Shown here: piece by piece, positions 1,029 through 7,621 of the stretch | Layout: the number at the start of each line of letters is the position of its first letter | Numbering within the stretch: position 1 is the stretch's first letter | From: Archangium gephyra | Lineage (GTDB): Bacteria; Myxococcota; Myxococcia; Myxococcales; Myxococcaceae | Direction of reading: 5' to 3' | Assembly: GCF_001027285.1 (NCBI RefSeq) | Contig: NZ_CP011509.1 | Span: forward strand, 7,836,501-7,900,500 | DNA length: 64,000 nucleotides | Notes under the pieces: generated by a model | What the model was told of the DNA's origin: nothing | What the model saw: only the letters and a program-made list of their open reading frames with translations | The model's database searches: none | Position numbers and translations under genes: made by a program

Positions 1029-1058
1029 AAAAAAGCCCGTCCTGGGTGGGACGGGCTT
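1029..1058 (-). terminator. Attenuator terminator of the his operon
   Basis: Read on the minus strand this is a perfect 10-bp stem (AAGCCCGTCC with GGACGGGCTT), a 6-nt loop, and a run of six T that begins in the stem end. It lies 40 bp before the hisG start and 37 bp after the stop codon of a His-rich leader peptide. That is the layout of ribosome-mediated attenuation. Leader codons for Asp-Gly (GACGGG, about 1131-1136) can pair with CCCGTC of the 5' stem arm and could serve as an antiterminator. That pairing is an inference. Confidence 0.85.
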
Positions 1059-1094
1059 CCGTTCACTGCGGCGGTTGCATCGGGGGGGCGTCTG

Positions 1095-1187
1095 TTACGC
1101 GTCAACCCAAGCATGCGCACGGCGAGCGGTCCCGTCGGGGGGCCGATGATGATGCGCATGATGATGGTGGTTGGACGCGAGACGCAC
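1095..1187 (-). CDS. hisL: His operon leader peptide (30 aa, 7 consecutive-type His codons)
   Basis: A GTG-started 30-codon reading frame ends in TAA and encodes MRLASN, then HHHHAHHH (1146-1169), then RPPDGT and a tail ending in AWVDA. Seven of eight adjacent codons are His (CAC or CAT). The frame is followed by an intrinsic terminator and hisG, the classic arrangement in which ribosome stalling at His codons prevents termination. No strong ribosome binding site is visible. The candidate promoter would place the transcript start only a few bases before the GTG, so translation may be almost leaderless. The start codon is inferred; the His run is directly seen. Confidence 0.85.
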   Translation of the reverse strand: MRLASNHHHHAHHHRPPDGTARRAHAWVDA

Positions 1188-1196
1188 GGGTTCACT

Positions 1197-1225
1197 AAGT
1201 AACGGACAGACCCCCGTCTCGTCAA
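1197..1225 (-). promoter_or_regulatory. Candidate sigma-70 promoter of the his operon
   Basis: On the minus strand TTGACG (1220-1225) is followed by a 17-bp spacer and TTACTT (1197-1202). The -35 matches the consensus at 5 of 6 bases and the -10 is weak. It sits just before the leader peptide, where an attenuated operon promoter is expected. The start would fall near position 1190. Confidence 0.5.
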
Positions 1226-1293: not shown

Positions 1294-2403
1294 ATGCGTG
1301 ACGCCAGCGTGATCATCGTGGGGGGAGGGGTGATTGGCTGTGCCATCGCCCTGAGGCTGAGCCAGGCGGGCGCGCGGGTGACGGTGCTGGAGCGCGCCAT
1401 CGCCGGGGCCGAGGCCTCCAACGCGGCCGGTGGCATCCTCGCCCCCCAGATGGAGTCCGAGGGCCCCGGGCCCTTCCTCGAGCTGTGCCTGCGCAGCCGG
1501 GCCCTGTACCCGGACTTCGCCGCGGAGCTGCTGGCCCTCACGGGCGTCAACGTGAACTACCTGCCCAGCGGCCTGCTGCACGTGGCCTTCGACGGGGCCG
1601 GAGCCCGGCGCCTGGAGACCACCGTGGAGTGGCAGCGGGCCCTGAAGCTGCGCGCGGAGCTGCTCGGCGCGGCCGAGGTGCACGCCCTGGAGCCCCAGCT
1701 CTCCCCCCACGTGGTGGCCGCCGCCCGGTTCCCGGATGACCATCAGGTGGACAACCGGCTGCTCACGCGGGCCCTCACCATGGCCGCCGCGAAGGTGGGC
1801 GCCACCTTCCGCACCGGCTACGTGCGCGGCGTGGTGGAGGAGAAGGGCCGCGTGGTGGGGGTGGACATGGATGGGGACACCCTGCGCGCGGACGCCGTGG
1901 TCATCGCCGCCGGCTCCTGGTCCGGCCTGGTCCAGGGCCTCTCGGTGGATCCCCGCGTGGTGCGCCCGGCCCGGGGGCAGATGGTGCAGCTGCAGACCCG
2001 GCTGCCGCTCTTCTCCCACGTCATCTTCTCCGACAAGGGCTACCTCATCCCCCGGGCGGATGGCCGGGTCCTCGCCGGCAGCACCCTCGAATTCGCCGGC
2101 TTCGAGAAGAACGTCACGGCCGAGGGACTCCATCGGATCCTCGCCCTGGCCATGGAGCTGTGCCCGGCGCTGGGCTCGACCCCGGTGCAGGAGACCTGGG
2201 CGGGCCTGCGGCCCTACACCGACGATCACCTACCCATCCTGGGGGCCGGACCCCTGCCCGGCCTCTTCCTGGCCACGGGTCACTTCCGCAATGGCATCCT
2301 CCTGGCCCCCATCACCGCCCGGCTCCTGGCCCAGGCTGTCCTCGGGGAGACCCCCTCCCTGGACCTCACACCGTTTCGTTTCGATCGCTTCCCCCGCCGC
2401 TGA
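1294..2403 (+). CDS. thiO: Glycine oxidase ThiO (FAD-dependent amine oxidase)
   Basis: FAD-dependent oxidase of the DAO family that oxidises glycine to iminoacetate for the thiazole half of thiamine. The ATG at 1294 starts MRDASVIIVGGGVIGCAIAL, whose GGGVIG dinucleotide-binding loop lies at the N-terminus as expected. The 369-residue length equals that of typical ThiO. Near the C-terminus are ETWAGLRPYTDDHLPILG and GHFRNGILLAP, both typical of this family. Longer in-frame starts exist upstream, but they add sequence before the Rossmann strand. No THI-box precedes it, in contrast to thiC 3 kb away. A related D-amino-acid oxidase activity cannot be excluded from sequence. Confidence 0.85.
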   Translation: MRDASVIIVGGGVIGCAIALRLSQAGARVTVLERAIAGAEASNAAGGILAPQMESEGPGPFLELCLRSRALYPDFAAELLALTGVNVNYLPSGLLHVAFDGAGARRLETTVEWQRALKLRAELLGAAEVHALEPQLSPHVVAAARFPDDHQVDNRLLTRALTMAAAKVGATFRTGYVRGVVEEKGRVVGVDMDGDTLRADAVVIAAGSWSGLVQGLSVDPRVVRPARGQMVQLQTRLPLFSHVIFSDKGYLIPRADGRVLAGSTLEFAGFEKNVTAEGLHRILALAMELCPALGSTPVQETWAGLRPYTDDHLPILGAGPLPGLFLATGHFRNGILLAPITARLLAQAVLGETPSLDLTPFRFDRFPRR

Positions 2404-5439: not shown

Positions 5440-7441
<2,002 letters not shown>

Positions 7442-7621
7442 GGGCGAGGGTGTAGCGCACCGGGGGACCGGGTATCAACCGCTTGGAGGGCCGCCTGTCC
7501 GCCAGGAAGCGTCCCGCCGGGCGCGCATCCCCTGCGGAGCCTCCTCCCCCGGGCGAAATCATTGCGCCGGTCAGCCCCGCCGTCGGCAGCCAACGTGGCG
7601 ACCTGACGAAAGAGCACGCCC

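Follow-up and report, generated by a model that had tools for sequence, protein, structure and literature searches.

Predicted leaderless leader-peptide attenuators precede the his operons of Archangium gephyra and of its relatives in three phyla

Attenuation of the his operon is classically known from enteric bacteria, and a His-rich leader in front of hisG in Archangium gephyra raises the question of how a myxobacterium controls its histidine genes. We analyzed this locus within a window of 64,000 nucleotides, meaning the whole stretch of DNA under study, taken from a genome that consists of a single 12.49 Mb contig. Our analysis indicates that the his operon is very probably under ribosome-mediated transcription attenuation, with the leader peptide translated from a leaderless 5' end. 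The parts of the switch, their conservation and co-variation, the promoter spacing and the operon context are all read from sequence. The features, in window positions, are the following:

1225-1196, minus strand: predicted leader promoter, with the -35 element TTGACG at 1225-1220, a spacer of 17-18 nt, and the -10 element TACTTA at 1201-1196 or TTACTT at 1202-1197
1187-1095, minus strand: leader peptide ORF MRLASNHHHHAHHHRPPDGTARRAHAWVDA, 30 codons, from GTG (1187-1185) to TAA (1097-1095), apparently leaderless
1169-1146, minus strand: regulatory His run CAC CAT CAT CAT GCG CAT CAT CAT, 7/8 codons being His
1160-1112, minus strand: protector (1:2) stem, 1160-1152 (CATGCGCAT) with 1120-1112, from RNAalifold (Myxococcaceae, Gemmatimonadota) and the free-state fold of this leader
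1136-1050, minus strand: antiterminator (2:3), a long hairpin from GACGGG (1136-1131) to CCCGTC (1055-1050), with the leader stop codon in its upper part
1059-1029, minus strand: intrinsic terminator (3:4), stem 1059-1049 with 1042-1032, loop CACCCA, U tract 1034-1029
989-135, minus strand: hisG, heading the his operon; long form with the HisG C-terminal domain, TIGR00070 and TIGR03455 both scoring above their cut-offs

The hisG, hisD, hisF, HisN (histidinol-phosphatase) and HisIE products pass curated NCBIfam cut-offs, HisC falls just below its own, and hisH, hisB and hisA were recognised from their ORF translations alone. On the other side of the leader, a gene for a ThiO-like FAD-dependent oxidase (1294-2403, plus strand) is divergent and shares the intergenic region. 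Elsewhere in the window, a TPP riboswitch (75 bits; 7336-7444, minus strand) lies ahead of thiC (7299-5440, minus strand).

The first-pass annotation had described a 30-codon leader with a GTG start and seven His codons out of eight at 1146-1169, and we confirmed both from the sequence. In a scan of the 64 kb in every reading frame on both strands, this run was the single 8-codon stretch with at least seven His codons, and 20 triplet-shuffled windows contained none. We compared the regions upstream of hisG at 104 distinct loci, counting as a His-run leader at least four His in ten codons. Such a leader was present in 92/92 loci with a long hisG and enough upstream sequence, which belong to Myxococcaceae (Archangium, Hyalangium, Myxococcus, Corallococcus, Pyxidicoccus and others), Gemmatimonadota and Candidatus Eiseniibacteriota. 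A short ORF in which codons for the end product are clustered, as is characteristic of the attenuators of amino-acid operons, was found in this leader (7/8 His) and in all of these relatives. At ten other Myxococcota loci, with HisG 35-42% identical, no such leader was observed. Codon choice within the runs differs from that in hisG: the Myxococcaceae leader runs contain 191 CAT versus 63 CAC, and the hisG genes 5 CAT versus 93 CAC. CAT is the rare His codon of these GC-rich genomes, yet it dominates in the leaders. Two explanations could account for this preference: CAT may be decoded more slowly, or the His-run stem may need it for pairing.

Between the leader ORF and hisG lies a GC-rich hairpin, AAGCCCGTCC-CACCCA-GGACGGGCTT, followed by six U. 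A terminator with six T had been proposed at this place, and it proved to be the sole terminator-like site in 900-1400 (1 found versus 0.4 expected). A terminator precedes hisG in 90/91 loci tested, as in the class of leader-peptide attenuators, and its stem carries compensatory changes among relatives (RNAalifold; Myxococcaceae, Gemmatimonadota). Loss of the His run or the terminator in close relatives had been named as a sign against attenuation; both are kept in all close relatives. As intergenic terminators are common, the hairpin could in principle be constitutive and the His-rich ORF accidental, with a DNA-binding repressor or a different promoter in control of the operon. We consider this highly improbable, since the uniqueness of the run in 64 kb, its presence in every one of the 92 loci and the co-variation of the antiterminator described below all argue against it, and no promoter-like site was found in the ~40 nt between the terminator and hisG. 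The switch might instead act on translation by masking the hisG ribosome binding site, and variants of this kind are known for other leaders according to one report (PMC9413887). Here, however, the final hairpin is a stem with U6 that ends ~40 nt before hisG and excludes the hisG start region, which makes translational attenuation very unlikely and favors the control of transcription.

Transcription attenuation involves a second structure that excludes the terminator. The first-pass annotation had proposed GACGGG in the leader for this role, and the complement of GACGGG (1136-1131) is indeed present as CCCGTC (1055-1050) within the terminator 5' arm. The pairing thus stood, but its extent did not: GACGGG represents only the first six bases, at the end of a helix of ~25 bp in which the second half of the leader pairs with the sequence through the terminator 5' arm, with a duplex energy of about -40 kcal/mol in most members. 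An alignment-free test, with the constant core left out, compared the pairing of each leader half to its own partner and to partners from other species. Own segments paired better than swapped ones for the 2:3 helix in Myxococcaceae (-26.7 versus -22.4 kcal/mol) and in Gemmatimonadota (-27.5 versus -25.0 kcal/mol), with 0/5000 permutations as good in either group. In the Gemmatimonadota alignment, two-sided changes were more numerous than in any of 500 shuffles. They lie mainly at pair 63:134, which occurs as GC, GU, CG and AU. In the divergent locus L018, an A-U pair has become U-A by a compensated exchange, with GTCGGG instead of GACGGG in the leader and CCCGAC instead of CCCGTC downstream. 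By pair counting in Myxococcaceae alone, antiterminator co-variation did not exceed shuffles or column composition, because the helix varies too little there (93% paired, variation mostly one-sided); it appeared solely once divergent members were included. Taken together, the antiterminator partners co-vary and the terminator changes compensate each other, which answers positively the covariation check suggested with the first description of the locus.

The His run is itself part of a further structure. Its segment CATGCGCAT forms base pairs with GCGCATG, which lies in the leader's second half, and the resulting protector stem encloses a small hairpin, CGGcCCC...GGGaCCG (1145-1127), whose GGCCC...GGGCC pairing hides GACGGG. 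This pairing of the His run would account, at the level of the RNA, for the GCG codon found within it in most Myxococcaceae. We analyzed the competition between these structures by equilibrium folding of an RNA ending just before the terminator 3' arm, with ribosome footprints set by standard assumptions. For this leader, the antiterminator held the terminator 5' arm with a mean probability of 0.00 with no ribosome, 0.97 when a ribosome stood at the first His codon, 0.98 at the middle His codon and 0.02 at the stop codon; the means over 42 Myxococcaceae were 0.09, 0.95, 0.97 and 0.15, respectively. In this model, the Myxococcaceae values behave as classical attenuation would, with off as the default state. 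For 47 leaders of Gemmatimonadota and related bacteria, the corresponding probabilities were 0.51, 0.82, 0.82 and 0.56, so that equilibrium folding separates the stalled from the at-stop state weakly in Gemmatimonadota (0.82 versus 0.56). Since this contrast is weak, the outcome in Gemmatimonadota would depend on timing and kinetics. Pairing, co-variation and ribosome-state folding together support an exclusive antiterminator chosen by the position of the ribosome, the folding being clear in Myxococcaceae and weak in Gemmatimonadota.

The most distinctive part of the system is the start of its leader. In this genome, the start codon begins 8-9 nt past the -10 element. TTGAC was observed 34-39 nt ahead of the leader start codon in 82/91 loci, and within 29-42 nt of it in 83 loci versus a shuffled mean of 0.8. 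The -35/-10 spacer measures 17-18 nt in 88/91 loci and the gap from the -10 element to the start codon 5-10 nt in 88/91, which fits leaderless spacing; the usual layout is TTGAC-N17/18-TAnnnT (or a close variant), 5-10 nt, then the start codon. In several Gemmatimonadota members, merely 5-6 nt separate a perfect TAnnnT from the ATG, leaving no room for an untranslated leader. Shine-Dalgarno pairing at the leader start was not above that of shuffled sequence in Myxococcaceae and Gemmatimonadota, the mean anti-SD energies (-1.6 and -0.5, respectively) being weaker than shuffled, as expected for leaders without a Shine-Dalgarno. The start codon is ATG in 47/47 leaders on the Gemmatimonadota side and GTG in most Myxococcaceae leaders, GTG being less usual than ATG in leaderless initiation. 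A strict sigma-70 scan missed the leader promoter, whose -10 element matches sigma-70 poorly in this genome. From the promoter spacing, transcription is predicted to start at, or within ~4 nt of, the leader GTG, and the leader is apparently leaderless. The first-pass annotation had hinted at a nearly leaderless start; the conserved promoter-start spacing and the lack of a Shine-Dalgarno strengthen this view. It had also counted a promoter downstream of the leader as a point against attenuation, and the conserved promoter lies upstream.

The same attenuator could, alternatively, carry a conventional untranslated leader, with an upstream start and a normal ribosome binding site. The weak -10 hexamer of this genome would allow it, and some start sites would leave 1-4 nt of untranslated RNA. 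We regard this as unlikely, given -35/-10/start-codon spacings that are constant across three phyla, the Shine-Dalgarno result before the leader start, and the Gemmatimonadota promoters that sit too close to the ATG. A leaderless start is the reading that we retain.

From these elements, we infer as follows where the RNA begins, where ribosomes would stand and how the switch would respond to histidine. Transcription would begin at the GTG or within ~4 nt of it, leading to leaderless translation of the leader peptide. With ample charged tRNA-His, the ribosome would pass the His codons and reach the stop codon, where its footprint would disrupt the upper antiterminator. Behind it, the His-run stem would re-form and sequester GACGGG, the terminator would then form, and transcription would halt ahead of hisG. 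When histidine is scarce, the ribosome would stall in the His run and cover the 5' side of the protector stem, freeing the second half of the leader to pair with the terminator 5' arm and the sequence preceding it. This antiterminator would let RNA polymerase continue into the operon. Without translation of the leader, the RNA of Myxococcaceae would adopt the protector and terminator fold, making off the default. Overall, the His attenuation first proposed for this locus is supported, and what that proposal lacked was the long antiterminator, the protector stem of the His run and the spread across phyla.

To describe this spread, we used a covariance model, R1, which detected exactly one site in the A. 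gephyra genome, the hisG leader. R1 matches were found in 73/195 Myxococcota genomes (one family, except for one weak match), in 91/249 Gemmatimonadota genomes and in 8/47 genomes of the Eiseniibacteriota group. Among 18 R1-match loci examined (L149 and L159-L175), 15 are followed by hisG; the others are L149, which has a different leader, L173 and the weak L175. Second R1 matches in four genomes (G137, G138, G159 and G055) were rejected as chance matches in coding sequence. One Gemmatimonadota genome (G294:C210) possesses two His attenuators ~9.5 kb apart, before hisG and hisC (L184:789 and L184:10303), an arrangement that is a split his operon, each part with its own leader. Since the second copy precedes hisC, the element is tied to the his genes and not to hisG alone. 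In the HisG tree, the long-form Myxococcaceae group with Gemmatimonadota and Eiseniibacteriota, apart from other Myxococcota, and Myxococcaceae need three label changes under the starred branches. This fits a joint horizontal movement of the his operon and its attenuator. Three contigs labelled Comamonas (L038), Kuenenia (L080) and Planctomycetota (L098) have a hisG and leader that group with Myxococcus, Gemmatimonadota and Myxococcaceae MAGs, respectively, and these records are probably mislabelled or misbinned.

Similar leaders were observed before other genes. In Archangium genomes, a Thr-run leader (e.g. VSFFSATTTTTTTATQTAGVDSCVK) precedes a threonyl-tRNA synthetase-like gene (L176-L182); it was the second R1 match in two of these genomes and also occurs in the genome under study (L180, G000:C1:10275361-10275578). 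TTGACA lies ~37 nt ahead of its GTG start, a spacing as in the his leader, and the element is apparently a leaderless Thr attenuator. In a Gemmatimonas genome (G199, L149:1500-1670), a leader with aromatic codons, MSTRAFSYWHGYRTPPRMGSGVR, starts ~36 nt past the start of a TTGACA; behind it come a terminator and a gene reading like DAHP synthase, making it a possible leaderless aromatic attenuator. Because of these Thr-run and aromatic leaders, the leaderless design may be general in Myxococcota and Gemmatimonadota. We propose, as an idea that is plausible but short of probable, that leaderless leader-peptide attenuation is a general design for amino-acid sensing in both phyla, with direct assembly of ribosomes on the 5' end, so that the switch would report both His-tRNA charging and the capacity for leaderless initiation, and that its his version moved between phyla with the operon. 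The his leaders also provide ~90 natural replicates in which translation apparently begins at codon one of an RNA still being made. With them the timing of attenuation, ribosome loading versus RNA polymerase, is testable, for example in Myxococcus xanthus. In addition, the covariance model can annotate leaders missed by the current Rfam library.

How does this leader compare with known systems? The Rfam His_leader model (RF00514) had no match in the window, at the gathering threshold or up to E = 10, nor in the whole genome, although the E. coli control was positive. T-box covariance models likewise gave no match at the gathering threshold or up to E = 10. In the whole Rfam library, no family matches this leader RNA; a Thr_leader fragment (17 bits, permissive Rfam threshold) was a terminator-like scrap that we rejected as chance. 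One study describes T-box control of his genes in Firmicutes and Actinobacteria (PMC9413887), and a T-box riboswitch specific for His, or some other his RNA already known, could have been expected here; with these negative searches its probability is close to nil. The reading that we keep, his attenuation, extends this mechanism to three more phyla, where the RNA has no sequence relation to the Rfam model. Full-text literature, a scope that omits most subscription papers, contained no prior description of his attenuation in Myxococcus or Myxococcota, Deltaproteobacteria or Gemmatimonadetes.

Like enteric hisL (E. coli and Salmonella, RF00514), the leader combines a His-run peptide, an exclusive antiterminator and intrinsic terminator, and hisG as the first gene. 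It differs in showing no sequence or structure match, in being apparently leaderless, in belonging to other phyla and in that here the ~15 codons after the His run form the 5' half of the antiterminator. In Firmicutes, as far as the available parts of two reports go, his attenuators are predicted in the B. cereus group, Peptostreptococcaceae and Erysipelotrichales and are reported as lineage-specific (PMC9413887), and hisZ/hisS leaders are known in bacilli (PMC2965389). These share with ours a short His-rich ORF followed by an attenuator with terminator and his genes; in the same parts of these sources, they differ by 3-5 His codons and other lineages, and no leaderless start is described. The Sinorhizobium meliloti trpL attenuator RNA starts at the ATG of its leader peptide (PMC7298713), a leaderless design like that proposed here, where the 5' end is predicted from promoter spacing; it differs by its Trp codons, trpE(G), 14-aa peptide and alphaproteobacterial host. 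In Streptomyces lividans, the LeuL, TrpL, IlvL, MetL and ThrL leaders are transcribed leaderless (PMC8079986), again in a GC-rich genome; no His leader is listed among them, and some are without an intrinsic terminator. Overall, the analysis gives good support to a family of predicted leaderless his attenuators, apparently undescribed, whose mechanism class is that of classical ribosome-mediated attenuation.
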